DNA of 64,000 nt from Novipirellula artificiosorum (GTDB lineage: Bacteria > Planctomycetota > Planctomycetia > Pirellulales > Pirellulaceae). A model generated the notes under the pieces. The model was not told where the DNA came from, searched no databases, and worked only from the letters and a program-made list of their open reading frames with translations. A program made the translations under genes and the position numbers. Below, piece by piece: positions 1 through 54,047 of the stretch (position 1 is its first letter; the number at the start of each line of letters is the position of its first letter). The stretch spans positions 1,485,299-1,549,298 of the forward strand of contig NZ_SJPV01000001.1 in the NCBI RefSeq assembly GCF_007860135.1, written 5' to 3'.

Positions 1-595
1 TCAGCACGCTGCGGTTGAGCGGTTCGTTGTCGTCCGCGTGCCCCCAAACTTTAGCCACGCCCCAATCGAGCAGGATCACCTCACCGAAGTTCCCAACCCA
101 GATGTTCTCCGGCTTCACGTCTCGGTGGATCACTCCACGAGCGTGCGCGTAGGCGAGTGCTTGGCAAGCCCCAATCAGGATCTCCAAACGGCGGGATAGC
201 GGGTAAGCATCGATCGTGTCCTGTTCGCCTTGTGCAATCCGCTTCAATATTTCGAACAGGTTCTCGCCCGAGATCCGCTTCATGACGAAGTAGATTCCCC
301 ACTCTTCGTCGTTTCCGATATCGTAGACTGGTACCGTGTTGGGGTGCTGCAATTGCGCGGTCACTCGAGCTTCGCGTAGCAAACGCCGCTGTTCACGCTG
401 ATCGTGTCGCGTTTCGGGGAGCAGCGACTTGATCGCGACGGTGCGACCGGTCACGCAATCGAAACCGGAACGCAGCACCGCGCTACCGCCACGTGCCATT
501 TCGCGAAGACCGCTATACCTCGCCAATCCAGGGGGGACGTTCTGTGGCAGGTCGGGATCGGTACCCGACAGGATAATGGTAGGTTCGTTGATCAT
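1..595 (-). CDS. Ser/Thr protein kinase, N-terminal part (gene runs off the left edge)
   Basis: About 198 N-terminal residues of a eukaryotic-like (Hanks-type) protein kinase are visible. The glycine loop is reduced to '[11 protein letters not shown]' (about residues 34-44), the ATP-binding lysine is in 'VAIKSL' (K56), the catalytic loop is 'HRDVKPEN' (D159), and the metal-binding motif reads 'LDWGVAK', DWG in place of DFG, a variant that I recall from many planctomycete kinases. The ATG at 595 gives a short leader 'MINEPTIIL' before the kinase fold; there is no clear ribosome binding site. Whatever follows the kinase domain (often a membrane segment or repeats) lies outside the window, so the signal it reads cannot be judged. 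The kinase assignment itself is secure. Confidence 0.9.
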
Positions 596-727
596 GCATC
601 TATTGTAAAGCAAAAAGCCTTGCCAACGCACCGTCGGTTCTTGTCACCGTGGCGGAGTCGGTTGCTTTGGCATTTGAGGTGTCGTTGCGGACGAAAAAAC
701 AGTCATCCCCGACAAGACCCGAGCAAG

Positions 728-7443: not shown

Positions 7444-8569
7444 TCGGATGCGTACCTTGGTGCTACTCGGTGTGGGGCATACCCACGCGGACGTGGTTCG
7501 TCATTGGATCAAATCTCCGATTCCGAATTGCCGATTGGTTTGTATTTCGCGATTTGCCTATTCCACCTATTCAGGGATGTTGCCAGGGACCTTAGCGGGC
7601 CAGTTTGAACGAGCCGAAATGCAAATCGATCTTGAGCCACTGGTAAGAGCCGCAGGAGCTGAGCTGCGGATGGACGAGGTGGTCGGCATGGACCCGCAAT
7701 CGGGCCTTCTTTTCTTTGCCGAGGGGGCGTCTTTGCGCTTTGATGTCCTGTCGGTTGGTGTGGGATCGATGCCCTGGGGAGTGGATCAGTTTCGTACCGA
7801 ATCGGTGGTGCCGATCAAGCCGATGCAAACATTTTTGGACCGACTCGATGCGCGGATCGAGTCGGTTGTCCCTCATCGTCCGCTTCGCGTTGCTATCGTG
7901 GGTGGCGGAGTCGCGGGCGTGGAGATTGCGTTGTGCTTGCGAACTCGCCTTGAAAGCCGTTTCGCGGGGCGTGAGGCATCGATCGAGATCGTTACAAGCG
8001 GAGCGAGTGTCGGTGACGGGCTTTGTGAGAAGAGCATCACGAAGCTCCATCGCCAATTGAAAAAGCGGCAAATCCGTGTTCTTTCTCAGACGCGAGTTGT
8101 CGACGTGACGACGGATTCCGTTGTGAGCGAAGCCGGCGATAGCATCCCAAGCGATTTGGTGGTCCTTGCGACCGCAGCAACGGGCCCACGCGTGCTATCG
8201 GTGCTGGGTTTGCCGATGGATCATCGCGGCTTTCTCGCTACCGATCGAACACTGAAAACCACGGCGGATTTCCCTGTCTTTGCCGTGGGCGATTCAGGCA
8301 CGGTGATCGAATCCCCCTCGCCAAAAGCGGGGGTTTATGCGGTTCGCCAAGCACCGGTGCTGTGGGAGAACCTGAACCGTTTGCTTCGGAACGAACCTCT
8401 CGAAAACTACCATGCACAAGCCGATTTCTTGAAGATTTTGAATACCGGCGATGGGAAGGCACTGCTACAGTACAAAGGCTGGGTCATTCATTCCCGTTGG
8501 TGTTGGTGGCTAAAAACATGGATCGACAAGGGGTTCATCAAGAAGTTCCAGGAGAAGTGGATTGAGTAA
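7436..8569 (+). CDS. FAD-dependent pyridine nucleotide-disulfide oxidoreductase, stand-alone form of the SelD-associated family
   Basis: 377 residues, related to NDH-2-type flavoproteins. An N-terminal dinucleotide fold 'VLLGVGHTHADVVRHW' and 'STYSGMLPGTLAGQFE' match the family usually described as the N-terminal partner of selenide water dikinase (TIGR03169-like). A second nucleotide-binding motif, 'VAIVGGGVAGVEIAL', lies near residue 155; 'FPVFAVGDSGTV' is the FAD-binding 'GD' block; the tail has 'ADFLKILNTGDGKALLQYKG', again typical of that family. No SelD domain or selD gene is present here. The redox partner is unknown; a quinone or cytoplasmic thiol is possible. It overlaps its neighbours by 8 bp on both sides, so the regulator that follows is translationally coupled. 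Confidence 0.8.
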   Translation: MNDRMRTLVLLGVGHTHADVVRHWIKSPIPNCRLVCISRFAYSTYSGMLPGTLAGQFERAEMQIDLEPLVRAAGAELRMDEVVGMDPQSGLLFFAEGASLRFDVLSVGVGSMPWGVDQFRTESVVPIKPMQTFLDRLDARIESVVPHRPLRVAIVGGGVAGVEIALCLRTRLESRFAGREASIEIVTSGASVGDGLCEKSITKLHRQLKKRQIRVLSQTRVVDVTTDSVVSEAGDSIPSDLVVLATAATGPRVLSVLGLPMDHRGFLATDRTLKTTADFPVFAVGDSGTVIESPSPKAGVYAVRQAPVLWENLNRLLRNEPLENYHAQADFLKILNTGDGKALLQYKGWVIHSRWCWWLKTWIDKGFIKKFQEKWIE

Positions 8570-8891
8570 GAAGAGATCGGCCGCCGGCGGTGGTCATGCG
8601 AAACCGAGCGGCAGTCCGGATGCATTTGCCGAAGCTGCGGAATGTTTGAAAACGATCGCTCATCCGGTACGTTTGCGGATGATCCAATTGTTGTTGCAAG
8701 GACGCTACACGGTCGGCGAGTTGGCCGAAGATTGCGAGGTTCCCGATAACGTGGCGTCGGAACACTTGCGATTGATGCAACGCTGCGGCTTCTTCACCAG
8801 TGAGCGAGAGGGACGACGTGTTTATTACCAAGTTGCCGAGCCACACTTGCAACAATTGATGCAGTGCATCGAAGGCCGCTTTCTGAATTAG
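8562..8891 (+). CDS. ArsR/SmtB-family transcriptional regulator
   Basis: A 109-residue winged-helix repressor-like protein. 'CLKTIAHPVRLRMIQLLLQG' and 'YTVGELAEDCEVPDNVASEHLRLMQRCGFF' form the typical ArsR helix-turn-helix, and 'REGRRVYYQV' is the beta-wing. No Cys pair of the metal-sensing CXC type is visible, so it may sense redox state or a small molecule rather than a metal. The start is a TTG with AGGAG 7 nt upstream; the gene begins inside the last codons of the oxidoreductase gene, so the two products probably act in one circuit. The 3' end shares two bases of stop codon with the convergent kinase gene. Confidence 0.9.
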   Translation: MSKKRSAAGGGHAKPSGSPDAFAEAAECLKTIAHPVRLRMIQLLLQGRYTVGELAEDCEVPDNVASEHLRLMQRCGFFTSEREGRRVYYQVAEPHLQQLMQCIEGRFLN

Positions 8892-11350
8892 CGATCTTCC
8901 CCATGCTGTTTCCACCATGCGACTGCCTCTTCGACACCCCACGGGTATTCGCTACGAAGCAGGTCGATCGCTTTGCCGAGCTCCTTCACCGTGCTGTAGC
9001 GATCGTCGGCGTTTTTTGACATGCAGGCGTAAACCAGCCCGCGAATCGATTCGGGGACTTCTTCGCCACGATGAATGCCAATGCCAATCGGCTGTTCGCT
9101 GATGATCAATGCAAACAGAGACTCGGGATCGCATTCGGCAAACGGAGGTCGACCGGCGAGCAAGTAGTAGGCGACGCAGCCGATCGAATAGATGTCCGAA
9201 CGGGGGTCCATGACGGTGGGTGACCGAAATCGTTCGGGAGCCATGTACATCGGTGTTCCCGCCCAAACCACCTCGCTGGTTTGATACGTGCTGTTGTCGG
9301 GGCTCAGCGGCTTGGCCAAGCCATAGTCAAACACCACTGCCCAGTCGCCCACCGAGGCATCGAGCGACAACATGATGTTCTGAGGTTTGATATCACGATG
9401 AACCAAGTCCATGCCGTGGGCTTCAATCAACGCTTCGCAAACTTGCCGTAGCACGTAAAGCACTCGACCGATTGGTTGAGAGCCACTTCTCGCAACAACC
9501 TCTTGCAGCGTAAGACCGTGCAGGTACTCCATCACACAGTAAGCTTCCCCTTCTTCGGATCGTCCATAATCGTAGATCATCACGCTATGCGGGCTGCTCA
9601 GTGAAGCGGCAAGCTTGGCTTCGCGATCGAAACGCAAGCGATCTTCTTTGTTGTGACGATCCCCACGAAGCAATTTAAGTGCCGTATCACGGCCAAGTTG
9701 ACGATGCTTGGCTTTGTAAACCACCCCCATCCCTCCGCTCCCCAACTCCGAAACAATTTCGTAGCGGCTAAGCGGATGAACGGCCGCATGATCTAATAGC
9801 GATCGCCGCGCCAATCGGCTTGCCGCAACGAAAGCCGTCACGGTCAACAGGCTGCCAAGCAACAGAAAGCTCGACCAAACGATACGAGCTGGGGCAAAGG
9901 CTTCTCTCACGCCCTTTTCGACAATGACCGCAAAATGCCATTTCGAGCTCCATCGCCATCCGCCGACGACCGATTCGCCAGCGTAGTTGTTGTAGGGCTT
10001 CAAACGCACGTCGGATTCGCCTTGCGTTGCCGACGCGACCGATTCGGTTAGCGGCAAGGCCCTGCGTTGGATCTTGCTGGCGGTGTCCGCGGAAAGCCGA
10101 ACGCCGGGATCCGTCACTCGTAGACCATCGGCGATTTTGTCGGGAGCCATTTCGAGATTCCCCCGGTGATATAGCGTTGCGGCATGTCCGCTTTCGCTGA
10201 TCATCATTCCTTCAGGGTTGACGGCATAGGCATCCAGTCCATTCCCCAAAGCGGCATCACGAAGCTTTTCGTTGAATTGTTCGTACAGCTGGATGCCCGA
10301 AACCAACATGGCTGCAATCACTTCGTCGTTGTCATCTCGGATGGGGACGATACAGGCCATGGCGGGGCGACCGGTCTTGGGAACGTAGCCCTCGATCGAG
10401 TCGTCGATTCGTTCGGGGCCGAAGAACATCGTTTCGCCTCGCAGAGCACGGGCGACATCACCGGCACCGGTCGGAGCAACCGGCTGGCCAATGTCCTCAC
10501 GGCTTTCGAGCCAGCTTGCAATCGTCGTGAAGGAGTGATTCCAAACGATAAAGCTGACCGATTCGACTCCGGATAGGATTTGCAGTTCATCATGAATGCG
10601 GTCCGACTGCGGCGCCGCCTTGAGCGTTTCGATCGGTGGCCGGGTTTCCGCGAGGTCCACCAGTTCAACGACGCAGTCGCGAATGCGAGTTTGCCGCGCC
10701 CACGATTCGACAAGCTGCGATTTGTTGTCCATGAATTGATCGGCCACCAAATTCACACTATCCGCCACTCCCGTCAACTCATTGCGCAGCGCCATTCGAA
10801 CGCTGTCTTCCACGCTTCGGTAAGTCCACCATCCGACCAATGCGGTCGGCAAGACGGCGGCGACCCATAGCCAACCCGAATTGATCCGCCGGGTACGACG
10901 CGATTTCTTGGCGAACAGCAATTGGCTTGGCGAACTGTGGTCGTGTGACCGGCGGGTGTCGTAATCCCGCGGCGAGGCATGCGTTCGCTCGGCACCACGT
11001 TGTGTGATCTCCGAGGCGGAAGCTTTCTTTTTTTGTTTTGGCGGGGCGGGGTTTTTCCCCTCGGCGTGGACCGGCGACGTCGTCTCTCCACCTCGCTCGG
11101 TTTCCCCCGGTTGGGAGACCGCGGAGGGCATCGCAGGGGGCAAACCGAGGGAGGCTTGCAGCGGAATGGCGTTTTCCCCTTCGGCTTTCGCCGATTCCGC
11201 GTCATGTTCCCCCAACAACGACATGACTTCGGCCACCAGTTCTTGGTCGCCCGCGGCCTGTCTCACCACAAAAGCTCGTTGATCCGCCCCAGAGAGTTCC
11301 TCGGCAGCGAGAAACAAATCGCGGACGAGCGTGTACCGCTTTGCGTCCAT
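8888..11350 (-). CDS. Membrane Ser/Thr protein kinase with extracytoplasmic Cache-like sensor and C-terminal kinase domain
   Basis: 820 residues. Order: a conserved opening segment ('RYTLVRDLFLAAEELSGADQ') seen in ECF-linked planctomycete kinases; a charged linker; helix 1 (about 160-178); an extracytoplasmic region of about 300 residues whose layout ('ACIVPIRDDNDEVIAAMLVSG') resembles a double Cache ligand sensor; helix 2 (about 491-512); then the kinase: 'LGSGGMGVVYKAKH', Lys near 560, 'HRDIKPQN' near 652. The metal-binding motif is 'FDYGLAK' (DYG, not DFG). The common bacterial order places the kinase first and the sensor after. The start ATG overlaps the stop of the upstream sigma factor gene as TGATG, so translation is coupled. 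Kinase secure; Cache inferred. Confidence 0.88.
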   Translation of the reverse strand: MDAKRYTLVRDLFLAAEELSGADQRAFVVRQAAGDQELVAEVMSLLGEHDAESAKAEGENAIPLQASLGLPPAMPSAVSQPGETERGGETTSPVHAEGKNPAPPKQKKKASASEITQRGAERTHASPRDYDTRRSHDHSSPSQLLFAKKSRRTRRINSGWLWVAAVLPTALVGWWTYRSVEDSVRMALRNELTGVADSVNLVADQFMDNKSQLVESWARQTRIRDCVVELVDLAETRPPIETLKAAPQSDRIHDELQILSGVESVSFIVWNHSFTTIASWLESREDIGQPVAPTGAGDVARALRGETMFFGPERIDDSIEGYVPKTGRPAMACIVPIRDDNDEVIAAMLVSGIQLYEQFNEKLRDAALGNGLDAYAVNPEGMMISESGHAATLYHRGNLEMAPDKIADGLRVTDPGVRLSADTASKIQRRALPLTESVASATQGESDVRLKPYNNYAGESVVGGWRWSSKWHFAVIVEKGVREAFAPARIVWSSFLLLGSLLTVTAFVAASRLARRSLLDHAAVHPLSRYEIVSELGSGGMGVVYKAKHRQLGRDTALKLLRGDRHNKEDRLRFDREAKLAASLSSPHSVMIYDYGRSEEGEAYCVMEYLHGLTLQEVVARSGSQPIGRVLYVLRQVCEALIEAHGMDLVHRDIKPQNIMLSLDASVGDWAVVFDYGLAKPLSPDNSTYQTSEVVWAGTPMYMAPERFRSPTVMDPRSDIYSIGCVAYYLLAGRPPFAECDPESLFALIISEQPIGIGIHRGEEVPESIRGLVYACMSKNADDRYSTVKELGKAIDLLRSEYPWGVEEAVAWWKQHGEDR

Positions 11351-11964
11351 CAATCCGACTCAGTAGGCATGTTTCCCCGCTGCGTGTCGTCCGACTCATC
11401 GATCATCGACTCATCTTGCCGGAGTTCGCGACGCATCCAGGCGCGAGCCATCGCCCAGTCCTTTTCTACCGTTCGCAGGCCCAAGTTCATCTCTGCGGAA
11501 ATCTCACGCATCGTCATGCCACCAAAAAAACGAAGCTCAACGATCCGAGCTTGGCGAGAATCCAGATTCGCGAGGGTGTTGAGCAAGTCATCCAACGCGA
11601 CGACGTCTTCATCGGAGCTCAGTTGGAAGGTGACATCATCGGTCAACATTCGGCGGTCCCAACCACCGCCCCGTTTTTGGGAACGCACCTTGCGAGCGTG
11701 ATCCACCAAGATACGCCGCATCACGGTTGCACCAATGGCGAAGAAATGCGTCTTCCCCTGCCAATTGATCCGAGATTGGTCAATCATCCGCATGTAAGCT
11801 TGATGGACCAACGAAGAGGAACTGAGCCGCTCGCGCATCGGTTCGTGCTGCAAGAATCGACCAGCCAATCGACGCAAGTCATCATACATCAACGTGAACA
11901 ATCGGTCGGTATCGGCCGGTTGCCCCTTGACGCTCTGTTCCACTAAATCGTTGACACTGCTCAT
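11350..11964 (-). CDS. ECF-family RNA polymerase sigma factor
   Basis: 204 residues. Region 2 is recognisable in 'LFTLMYDDLRRLAGRFL' and 'SSLVHQAYMRMIDQ', and region 4 in 'RIVELRFFGGMTMREISAEM' with 'RTVEKDWAMARAWMRREL'. This is the planctomycete/acidobacterial ECF class usually encoded next to a protein kinase rather than an anti-sigma factor, and the kinase gene follows here with overlapping stop and start codons. The likely model is phosphorylation-dependent control of the sigma factor by the membrane kinase. I chose the ATG at 11964 because upstream sequence in the same frame has no family resemblance. Targets are unknown. Confidence 0.92.
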   Translation of the reverse strand: MSSVNDLVEQSVKGQPADTDRLFTLMYDDLRRLAGRFLQHEPMRERLSSSSLVHQAYMRMIDQSRINWQGKTHFFAIGATVMRRILVDHARKVRSQKRGGGWDRRMLTDDVTFQLSSDEDVVALDDLLNTLANLDSRQARIVELRFFGGMTMREISAEMNLGLRTVEKDWAMARAWMRRELRQDESMIDESDDTQRGNMPTESD

Positions 11965-12138: not shown

Positions 12139-12894
12139 TCATGGTTTTCTGCCGACAAGGACTTCTCGTTTTCCTCCCACGGGTCCGGGGGCCTTCTGAA
12201 CATCGAAACCAACCTCGCTGAGTCGGTCACGAATCTCACGTTTGACGCAATAGGTAACAAGTGTTCCTCCCGGTCGAACCATTGAATGCATTTTTTTCAG
12301 CATGGGACCACTCCACAAACCGGGGTTGTCCTGGGGAGCAAACGGATCGAAATAGATGGCATCAAACGGCTCCGAATCGCTGTTCCAATCCGACGCGTCG
12401 GCAAGGTGTATCTGAATCCGTTGCTGTGCACCGGCATCCCAGCCGTAAATCGCCGGGCCGAATGGCAGTTCGCGGCCATGCTTCACTTCCAATCGCTCCC
12501 GCCAACTCATGTATCGATGCACCAGATCAGGGTCGCTCACCCAAGAATCGCATTGAAGTTGGTTCATGATCTGCGCAGGCAGCCACGCCTGTTCGATCGC
12601 GACGTAACGCAGGGGGGTCCCGTTGGCGATCGCCGCGTCCACCGTCATCAGCATGGCCATCGACGTGCCCAAGCCGATCTCTAACACGGATGTGTCCAGG
12701 CGTGCACTTATTCTTTCTTCCACGCCACTGTTGTGGAAATAAACATGCCGCGTCTCCGTCAGAGCGCCAGAACAGCTGTGGAACGTGTAACCTCCCTCGT
12801 TTGTTCGAAGCGTGCGGCTACCATCGTCGGTGATTTGGATCGTCAACTTTGGGTCCACGGTCGTCAAGGTTTCTCGTTCGTGGCGATCTGGCAT
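12139..12894 (-). CDS. MnmD-like tRNA U34 methyltransferase
   Basis: About 251 residues. A class I SAM-dependent fold is indicated by 'SVLEIGLGTSMAMLMTV', and the family-specific block 'FDAIYFDPFAPQDNPGLW' matches the N-terminal domain of MnmC (stand-alone MnmD), which methylates the aminomethyl group on wobble uridine 34. The oxidoreductase half of MnmC is absent. The ATG at 12894 has GAGAAG upstream; an in-frame ATG at 12918 is an alternative that would overlap the divergent gene's earliest possible start. A role in tRNA modification is inferred from family. Confidence 0.8.
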   Translation of the reverse strand: MPDRHERETLTTVDPKLTIQITDDGSRTLRTNEGGYTFHSCSGALTETRHVYFHNSGVEERISARLDTSVLEIGLGTSMAMLMTVDAAIANGTPLRYVAIEQAWLPAQIMNQLQCDSWVSDPDLVHRYMSWRERLEVKHGRELPFGPAIYGWDAGAQQRIQIHLADASDWNSDSEPFDAIYFDPFAPQDNPGLWSGPMLKKMHSMVRPGGTLVTYCVKREIRDRLSEVGFDVQKAPGPVGGKREVLVGRKP

Positions 12895-12992
12895 GATACT
12901 CGACTTCTCGATGGCCATTGACAGAGGATGTGGTAAAATGTCGCAGCCTAATCGTGGTAACCGCCCCTTTATTTGACGGACTTCTCCCGCGC

Positions 12993-52322: not shown

Positions 52323-54047
52323 ATGCCGGACGAAGGCCCCAAAACGGACAGTGATGACGAGGATCGCGAAGACGAGCATCGCGAAGATGAGGATGTTGCT
52401 TTCCAACGCTTGCTTGCTGACTTGATCGCCGCCGTGGAACGCGGTGAAAGGGTCGATCGCGATGCTCTGGATCGTGACTATCCGCGATATGCAAAATCCA
52501 TCTGTGAGTTCTTGGACGATCACGAGCGGCTTCATGGTGCGGTAGACGAGCTCTTCGAACCGCCGAGTGAAGAGGATCCTTACGCGACGCTCCATTCCTC
52601 CGAGGATCATCGTAGCGGTAGCCGAGTGTGGTCGCTTGCTCGCTTTGGGGAAACCGAATTTCCCATTTCGTTTGGTGACTATTCCCTTTTGCGAGAGATC
52701 GACCGCGGCGGAATGGGGATCGTTTTCGAAGCCTTGCACTGCAGTTTGAACCGCGTCGTTGCACTGAAAATCATGCGGACCGCGGGATTGGCAAGCGAGG
52801 AAGAACTGCGGCGTTTTCGTTTTGAAGCGGAAGCGTCGGCGGCGATCAAGCATCCGAACATCGTCCCCATTTTTGAAGTAGGCGAAGCACACGGGCTGGT
52901 CTACTTCACCATGGCGTTCGTCGATGGCGAGGACTTAAGCTCATTGGTGAGGCGAAGGCAAATACAGCCGCGAGAAGCGGCAAAGATCATGAGCAAGGTC
53001 GCCGATGCCGTCGCGACCGCTCATCGTCAGGGTGTGATCCACCGCGATTTAAAACCGTCCAATATCCTGGTCGACGAGAAAGGCGAGCCCTATTTGATTG
53101 ATTTTGGTTTAGCCAAACAAGAAGAATCTCGCGATGCATTGACCTGTGCTGGGCAAATTCTCGGCACTCCCGCCTACATGGCACCCGAGCAGGCAAGCGG
53201 AAAATGTATTCAGAATCCAGCGTCCTGTGACCTCTATTCGCTCGGCGCGGTGCTGTACGAGTTGCTGACTCGTCAAGCTCCGTTTCACGGTCCCACTCCC
53301 TTCGACGTTTTGTTGCAAGTCGTTGATCGGGACCCTGCAAGACCACGACAACTATGCAAACAGATTCCTCGTGATCTGGAGACGATTTGCATGCGAGCGA
53401 TGGAGAAGGATCCTGCACAACGCTACCCGTCCGCCGAGCAGATGCAGTTGGATCTGCAACGTTTCCTACTCAACGAGCCCATCCTCCGTCCACGCCCGAC
53501 GCTTTCCGATCGTATGCAGATGTGGTGGCGGCGTGAACCGATCTTAGTAAGTCATCTTTGCGGGATTTTCTCGGTCTTGCTGGTGGTCATCGCGGCACAG
53601 TTGATTCGCGAGACCGATTCGCAGAACACGAAATTGAAGGTGACACTGTTGCTCGTCTGGCTCGTCGGTAGCCTGCTCTTTCAGCGTCTTTCGGTGGTGA
53701 ACCGAATGACCGACGTGGCGCATTGGTTGTGGGCAGCGTTTGATGTTGCAACCTACACCACGCTCATCTATTGGGCGGATCCCCCACGCGGGCTATTGCT
53801 GGTCGGCTATCCCATGATGATCACCGCCAGCGGGCTGTTTTATCGAGCCCGCTTTGTCGTTTTCGTGACTTCCGTCTGCGCCATCGGATTCCTGTTGCTC
53901 TGCGTGAGCGTCGAGGATCCGATGACGCTGCGGACGGATTTCTGTGTGATCTATTTGTCGGGACTGGTGGTTCTTGGCCTATGCCTTGTTTCGATGATCC
54001 GCCGGGTCCGAGGCCTCAGTGACTACTTTGGCAGAGGCAACGAGTAG
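52323..54047 (+). CDS. Ser/Thr protein kinase with C-terminal membrane helices
   Basis: 574 residues. An acidic N-terminus (including two tandem 5-residue units, DREDE and HREDE) and the segment 'DRDYPRYAKSICEFLDDHE', often seen in planctomycete kinases, precede the kinase: 'IDRGGMGIVFEALH', Lys in 'VALKIMR', 'HRDLKPSNIL' and an orthodox 'LIDFGLAKQ' (DFG). 'GTPAYMAPEQ' marks the activation loop end. The last 150 residues hold about five membrane helices ('HLCGIFSVLLVVIAAQLI', 'GLLLVGYPMMITASGLFY'), so the kinase is tethered from its C-terminal side. The substrate is unknown. It lies 146 bp after the giant lipoprotein gene. Confidence 0.93.
   Translation: MPDEGPKTDSDDEDREDEHREDEDVAFQRLLADLIAAVERGERVDRDALDRDYPRYAKSICEFLDDHERLHGAVDELFEPPSEEDPYATLHSSEDHRSGSRVWSLARFGETEFPISFGDYSLLREIDRGGMGIVFEALHCSLNRVVALKIMRTAGLASEEELRRFRFEAEASAAIKHPNIVPIFEVGEAHGLVYFTMAFVDGEDLSSLVRRRQIQPREAAKIMSKVADAVATAHRQGVIHRDLKPSNILVDEKGEPYLIDFGLAKQEESRDALTCAGQILGTPAYMAPEQASGKCIQNPASCDLYSLGAVLYELLTRQAPFHGPTPFDVLLQVVDRDPARPRQLCKQIPRDLETICMRAMEKDPAQRYPSAEQMQLDLQRFLLNEPILRPRPTLSDRMQMWWRREPILVSHLCGIFSVLLVVIAAQLIRETDSQNTKLKVTLLLVWLVGSLLFQRLSVVNRMTDVAHWLWAAFDVATYTTLIYWADPPRGLLLVGYPMMITASGLFYRARFVVFVTSVCAIGFLLLCVSVEDPMTLRTDFCVIYLSGLVVLGLCLVSMIRRVRGLSDYFGRGNE

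Follow-up and report, generated by a model that had tools for sequence, protein, structure and literature searches.

Which features of a kinase tell it what sigma factor to act upon, in a genome that holds many of both? The question is raised by a gene pair in a 64,000-nucleotide stretch of the Novipirellula artificiosorum genome (contig NZ_SJPV01000001.1; this whole stretch is referred to as the window), in which an extracytoplasmic function (ECF) sigma factor gene of the TIGR02999/PF07638 type (204 amino acids; 11350-11964) adjoins a receptor Ser/Thr kinase gene, recognized as an open reading frame with a PF00069 domain (820 amino acids plus stop; 8888-11350). Both lie on the minus strand, as do all parts of the pair located below. 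With 95 kinase-domain hits in this genome (a few being two pieces of one protein) and 22 matches to the window sigma factor, the specificity of wiring is a real problem. We find that a short segment opening the kinase tracks this type of sigma factor; an earlier note on this DNA had seen only its placement before a kinase. From this co-occurrence, and from a partial coevolution of the two, the opening segment is most likely where the sigma factor docks, and we consider it fairly probable that the pair constitutes a one-operon switch from signal to promoter, in which a sensor governs the kinase and the kinase phosphorylates the sigma factor. Kinase-linked sigma factors are a known class; the novelty lies in recognizing that the opening module recurs across phyla, and that here it stands beyond a membrane receptor.

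An opening segment that accompanies the sigma factor

The proposed sigma-docking domain occupies residues 1-59 (11174-11350), as delimited by sequence profiles and a structure model. It is an unnamed module of three helices, modeled with block means of 86-92 pLDDT (predicted local distance difference test) over residues 1-50, and has the consensus RYxRVKExFLxAxELPxxxRxxFLxxxCGxDxxLxxEVxSLLxxH. Among 52 members compared at E <= 0.1, no Pfam family matched more than two and no NCBIfam family more than one. Two profiles were used to detect it. The first, of 17 sequences, includes the genome's own 16 sigma-linked kinases, its segments having been picked after sigma genes; the second, of 52 sequences, derives from other genomes plus the window's own segment. 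E-values behind the genome and 30-locus counts made with the first profile are conditional domain values, while those behind counts made with the second are independent.

With the second profile, 17 of the 95 kinases carry the opening segment at E < 0.001, and a TIGR02999-type sigma factor gene lies within 0.5 kb upstream of 14 of these, versus 2 of the 78 others. The two sigma-linked exceptions (L139 and L143) have the segment by the first profile; one kinase lacking it (L117) has fewer than 600 bases of upstream sequence. The window kinase, with its N-terminal three-helix module and a sigma factor gene directly upstream, is itself one of these sigma-linked opening-segment kinases. The segment is absent from all seven kinases that have an ECF sigma factor of another kind within 1 kb; six of these sigma factors keep DxxD, the acidic motif (DAED/DxxD) of region 2.2 through which ordinary ECF factors contact RNA polymerase, and the seventh has QTED. 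The kinases beside the DxxD-keeping factors (L093, L116, L124, L147, L152 and L170), some of them at equally tight spacing, thus represent a separate form of kinase-ECF pairing that lacks the segment.

The association extends well beyond this genome. A 361-residue query from the kinase's sensor region found a match at E <= 1e-6 in 102 of the 199 same-family genomes searched. The best 30 matches were taken as loci, the window included (29 non-self), and all 30 have both a TIGR02999-type sigma factor and the opening segment, the latter at E <= 2e-9 by the 52-sequence profile. More distant relatives of the sensor were drawn from 80 of 120 places listed beyond the best 30 (further places exist); two were dropped, having fewer than 500 bases upstream and no sigma factor, which left 78 that could be scored. 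Sigma factor and opening segment occur together in 20 of these, the sigma factor alone in none, the segment alone in two and neither in 56 (at E < 0.01, segment alone in four and neither in 54). On a tree the combination appears ancestral, with at least two changes for the opening segment and at least four for the sigma factor; one pair of relatives (L277, L278) has no sigma factor and an eroded segment.

Across the phylum, the opening profile matches in 18 of 59 genomes, the window's own included. The other 17 contributed 28 loci, the best one or two hits of each: every hit precedes an in-frame kinase, and 25 follow a TIGR02999-type sigma factor within 1.5 kb. The same search of the window's genome, with flanks of 1.5 kb, returned 20 hits, comprising 14 with both genes, three with the kinase only, one with the sigma factor only and two with neither. 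A second sigma factor with opening segment in this genome (L016/L343, G000:C5:285806-286430) is followed by a hydrophobic stretch and, by eye, a Cache-like start; its reading frame ends before any kinase, and it looks like a remnant or a truncated pair.

Rather than binding the sigma factor, the opening segment could regulate the kinase itself, through dimerization or autoinhibition, and follow the sigma factor only via joint inheritance of the pair. We regard this as unlikely. It would suit the position of the segment in most kinases, 13-46 residues before the kinase domain (the direct type); in the group to which the window belongs, where a sensor lies in the middle, the segment is nevertheless kept at a distance of some 430-530 residues, beyond two transmembrane helices. 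Moreover, 56 of the 58 distant sensor relatives without a sigma factor also lack the segment at E < 0.001. How the parts have diverged also speaks for docking. Over 97 sigma/opening/kinase triples, and with the kinase controlled for, distances of the opening segment correlate with those of the sigma factor at 0.41, higher than any of the 26 kinase windows (each of 48 columns) used for comparison. In the 33 triples of the direct type the partial r is 0.36, a value reached by 0 of the 26, and the kinase hardly follows the sigma factor (r 0.19), which counts against a mere regulator of the kinase.

Several observations pull the other way and temper the proposal of docking. In the 64 triples with the sensor in the middle the correlation is 0.26 and is reached by 13 of the 26 kinase windows, which gives no support to docking and agrees with a segment serving the kinase. 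The Fisher value of 1e-16 for co-occurrence among the distant relatives ignores descent and is inflated by shared ancestry; the cases of joint loss come down to a single clade of 55 plus an eroding pair, separated by branches of low support, and so small a number of co-loss events likewise favors the kinase regulator. Two relatives (L264, L289) keep the segment with no sigma factor in the stretch examined, and 3 of the 17 opening kinases of this genome (4 of 20 by the first profile) have no such sigma factor within 0.5 kb upstream. The first-profile count itself, a sigma factor upstream of 16 of 20 opening kinases and of 0 of 75 others, is partly circular. Finally, a Foldseek search of the opening model against the PDB gave 29 matches, none under E 3.7.

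A sigma factor with serines in place of acidic residues

The window sigma factor is a clear member of both of its families (PF07638, E 1.8e-61, 207.7 bits against a cut-off of 21.1; TIGR02999, 202.6 bits against 126.15). In region 2.2, alignments place a block of four serines, Ser48-Ser51 (codons at 11812-11823), where the acidic DxxD/DAED motif would stand, and comparison with the sigma factors EcfP and EcfK makes this block the likely phosphorylation site or sites. The block reads SSSS in 27 of the 30 close copies (the window among them), SSAS in two and TSSS in one; motif positions 1, 2 and 4 are Ser or Thr in all 30, and the third position, Ser50 in the window, is Ser in 28 and Ala in two. 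In a wider alignment of 150 sigma factors, in which a species' copies may occur in both its unnamed and named sets, 62 form a Ser group, in which membership requires Ser/Thr at the first motif position together with Ser at the fourth (both invariant there by definition), and the remaining 88 all have Thr at position 3 (88/88). An acidic residue occurs within the four positions in 6 of the 150, and DxxD in one (L257). The 25 sigma factors of the phylum sample include 23 with Thr at position 3 and none with DxxD. Within the Ser group, the first opening profile matched at 21 of 25 loci; the four without such a match (L198, L201, L203, L205) match the second at E <= 8e-7.

Having lost the acidic residues that touch RNA polymerase, the window sigma factor is probably inactive by itself. 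It has the features of an ECF43-like factor activated by a Ser/Thr protein kinase, namely an uncharged replacement of DxxD, Ser at the third position, an adjacent kinase and no adjacent anti-sigma factor, and we infer, by homology to EcfP and EcfK, that it is one of the ECF factors known to be switched on by a kinase, with phosphorylation as the activating event. Published work on these factors describes phosphorylation of the third position of the STTA motif in EcfP of Vibrio parahaemolyticus (PknT-EcfP, ECF43; PMC8999054) and of T51, likewise at the third position, in the QATE motif of EcfK (PMC13147305). The Ser version of region 2.2 was already foreseen in PMC8103513, where the presumed target is a Thr for ECF43 but a Ser for both ECF59 and the original ECF60. 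The earlier note's idea of signaling without an anti-sigma factor gains from these comparisons, region 2.2 being of the phosphorylation-activated kind (PMC8999054, PMC13147305); in the window, too, no anti-sigma gene adjoins the pair, as it had claimed.

Some details sit less easily with phosphorylation at the position known from EcfP. The third Ser is replaced by Ala in 2 of the 30 close copies and by Ala or Val in 9 of the 62 Ser-group members, and in EcfK a residue of the linker, T106, is important too (PMC13147305), while the comparison made here covers region 2.2 only. The third Ser as sole phosphosite is weakened as a candidate by these SSAS and SSVS members, and the exact site may differ from that of EcfP. 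The nine relatives with such motifs are L052, L053, L195, L198-L201, L203 and L205, seven of which have weak or no match to the 17-sequence opening profile.

The character of the sigma factor also bears on a further interpretation of the opening segment, as a built-in anti-sigma domain that keeps the sigma factor membrane-bound, phosphorylation being the signal for its release. In membrane anti-sigma factors, a helical portion on the cytoplasmic side belongs to a membrane protein whose gene immediately follows that of the sigma factor, and both the helical fold of the opening segment and the layout of the window genes correspond to that arrangement. Sequestration would be redundant, however, for a sigma factor that is probably inactive already, no anti-sigma family appeared among the Pfam and NCBIfam matches of the 52 segments, and the segment has no fold match; we consider such a role distinctly improbable.

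Conservation and surroundings of the pair

Kinases can be read in 28 of the 30 best sensor loci (27 of 29 non-self), the other two being cut by a contig end. All 28 retain the ATP-binding Lys and the Asp of DFG/DYG; HRD is present in 26, and HLD replaces it in L052 and L053. The sigma factor alignment, run against named genomes, picked out 80 loci, among them those of Rhodopirellula baltica, R. europaea, R. sallentina, Stieleria, Rubripirellula and Roseimaritima. Seven of these have no kinase within 1.5 kb downstream of the sigma factor: in L181 and L194 the sequence runs out within 1.7 kb of its stop codon and in L256 and L257 at the stop itself, and in L206, L254 and L255 the 2.4-5.0 kb of sequence present holds no kinase.

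When flanks of up to 5 kb were compared (blastp at E <= 1e-15, reading frames of at least 100 residues), relatives of both sigma factor and kinase recurred in all 27 named Ser-group loci, and relatives of a neighboring oxidoreductase and MnmC2-like methyltransferase in one of the 27 each. Since no flanking gene of the window has a relative in more than 1 of the 27 loci, the sigma/kinase pair is itself the conserved unit. This constancy, together with the near invariance of the Ser block across close copies and the description of two relatives in the class, EcfP and EcfK, as phosphorylation targets (PMC8999054, PMC13147305), speaks against a sigma factor that is active alone and unphosphorylated beside a kinase with some other target. 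In favor of such independence, the Ser block could be neutral drift, and no biochemical data on a planctomycete pair were found in the literature covered; on balance it is highly improbable. Neighbor conservation around the pair in the 27 named loci gives no hint of a regulon, and a search upstream of the sigma factor gene in 18 relatives revealed no common motif as a promoter footprint, so that autoregulation is neither supported nor excluded.

The two genes of the window are joined directly, as first described, through TGATG (11348-11352), read from the sequence, in which the sigma factor stop TGA (11352-11350) and the kinase start ATG (11350-11348) have one base in common. The further claim that this junction enforces near-equal synthesis loses its footing in relatives: only 20 of 30 close copies and 12 of 27 named Ser-group loci have the overlap, other spacings occurring in the remainder, and on these counts we dropped it as a defining feature of the pair.

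On the far side of the kinase gene, an ArsR/SmtB-type repressor (8562-8891, plus strand) converges with it and overlaps its end by four bases. Beyond the sigma factor gene lies a stand-alone MnmC2-like tRNA methyltransferase domain (12139-12918, minus strand; 152.8 bits against a cut-off of 136), whose fused oxidoreductase half is not in the same reading frame. The window holds two more kinase-domain genes (2-643, minus strand, cut by the left edge; 52680-53441, plus strand), which have neither an opening segment nor a nearby TIGR02999-type sigma factor.

Architecture and descent of the receptor kinase

The order of parts first read from the kinase, namely opening segment, helix, sensor, helix and kinase, is borne out. 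The opening segment is followed by a linker modeled with little confidence (residues 61-152, pLDDT < 50) and by a first transmembrane helix (residues ~158-178; 10817-10879); a dCache-like sensor (residues ~179-487; 9890-10816) is predicted outside the inner membrane, and a second helix (residues ~488-512; 9815-9889) leads to the Hanks-type kinase domain (residues 530-787; 8990-9763). Both helices were placed by alignment, model and charge counts, and the sensor by profile, model and charges. The kinase domain matches PF00069 at E 1.3e-43 (149.7 bits against a cut-off of 31.7), and the alignment retains the GxGGMG, ALK, HRD and DYG motifs, DYG standing for DFG. Alignment and model also delimit a C-terminal W..A..WW tail (residues ~803-816; 8903-8944), common to many kinases with the sensor in the middle.

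Counts of Lys plus Arg against Asp plus Glu (6/0 before the first helix, 3/3 after it, 3/2 before the second and 3/1 after it) favor a topology in which the opening segment and kinase lie inside and the sensor outside, in line with the two-helix arrangement proposed earlier and not with a cytoplasmic sensor region. As to its fold, the dCache_1 profile (PF02743) matches residues 190-389 of the window kinase at E 1e-7 with 32.2 bits, below the Pfam cut-off of 45, and the sensor alone scores 35.8 bits. Its homologues carry the similarity further: 29 of 38 scanned sensors match dCache_1 at E <= 0.001, the best at 1e-15, and that of L219 exceeds the cut-off with 46.7 bits. The Cache-like assignment of the earlier note is in this respect upheld. 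A profile of the sensor found no solved structure at E <= 0.1, and a Foldseek search with the full-length kinase model gave kinases throughout the 50 matches listed and did not thereby confirm the sensor fold.

In a tree of 152 kinase domains, the kinases with the sensor in the middle form one clade (support 0.997), apart from a second (0.992) that unites the genome's 18 direct opening-kinases; some direct opening-kinases of other genomes fall elsewhere, and backbone supports are low. The former clade contains the window group, a multi-transmembrane group including L105, and two-helix relatives in Planctomycetota, Flammeovirga and one Bacteroidales genome. It also holds L107 and L127 of this genome, of similar layout but with neither opening segment nor sigma factor. 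The sensor had originally been described as inserted between the opening segment and the kinase. As a layout this holds; that the sensor recently entered a direct opening-kinase is unlikely because the two types lie in separate clades, a judgment to be read with the low backbone supports and the presence of direct kinases in more than one clade. That kinases of separate lineages bear the same opening is consistent with a module accompanying the sigma factor. The paralogue with the nearest sigma factor (L105, G000:C3:101192-103449; sigma factors 50% identical) has an opening segment, a multi-transmembrane region, a kinase and the same WW tail, so that a membrane sensor of another kind occupies the corresponding position.

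Relation to known kinase-sigma systems

When the opening profile was compared with all PDB sequences, a single match arose at E <= 1e-5: residues 6-61 of 9EED (E 2.3e-11), which is PknS of Xanthomonas citri, the kinase that phosphorylates EcfK (PMC13147305). The N-terminal 83 residues of PknS are described there as conserved in Xanthomonadaceae, invisible in the crystal, predicted to form three to four helices, and such that they "may play a functional role"; a link to other sigma-linked kinases was found neither in the sections of PMC13147305 covered nor in a wider literature search, the ECF classification papers being outside its reach. PknS-EcfK (ECF43) and the window pair alike join a DxxD-less ECF factor to a kinase with the same opening at its start. 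They differ in that PknS carries the opening directly before the kinase, with a transmembrane segment and a periplasmic TPR region after it, whereas in the window the opening is followed by a helix, the dCache-like sensor, a second helix and the kinase; EcfK has QATE with a phospho-Thr, and the window sigma factor SSSS. EcfP, too, lacks DAED and is activated by phosphorylation, with Thr where the window factor has Ser.

Groups ECF59, ECF61, ECF62 and ECF217 are listed in a table of PMC8999054 as kinase-linked, with planctomycete examples, and groups other than ECF43 may, according to the same source, keep DAED-like motifs. Together with the original ECF60 (PMC8103513) they resemble the window pair, compared by description only, as planctomycete ECF factors beside a kinase. 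The passages on kinase-linked ECF groups in PMC8999054 and PMC8103513 make no mention of an opening segment or a Cache sensor, and the word Cache is absent from the main text, as available, of a survey of planctomycete kinases (PMC11032199).

Receptors with a dCache domain between two transmembrane helices are familiar among histidine kinases and chemoreceptors. The window protein resembles these in the arrangement by which such a sensor feeds a cytoplasmic output domain; it departs from them in having a Hanks kinase as output and, before the first helix, a cytoplasmic module that is conserved.

A proposed mechanism and its implications

If it works like other dCache receptors, the dCache-like sensor would respond to some ligand or condition beyond the inner membrane and, through the two transmembrane helices, alter the activity of the cytoplasmic kinase. 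The opening segment, on the cytoplasmic side and borne on a disordered linker, would offer the sigma factor its docking place, and the kinase would then phosphorylate its neighbor within the region 2.2 Ser block. The added negative charge might replace the missing acidic residues and allow the sigma factor to bind RNA polymerase; because the phosphate charge would stand in for those residues, no anti-sigma factor would be needed. Tentatively, and a little short of calling it probable, we propose more generally that the opening segment is a sigma-docking domain marking the kinases that license DxxD-less ECF factors in Planctomycetota, Acidobacteriota, Bacteroidota and Xanthomonas, a portable adaptor set either before a kinase or beyond a whole receptor, and lost along with its sigma factor.

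If this is true, a small detachable module would make it easier to foretell from sequence which kinase and sigma factor belong together, and their specificity could be tested by exchanging some 60 residues. It would also suggest a role for the 83 N-terminal residues of PknS, which its authors leave without an assigned function. Sensors and kinases would then be exchangeable parts, the specificity for the sigma factor staying in the opening module alone.

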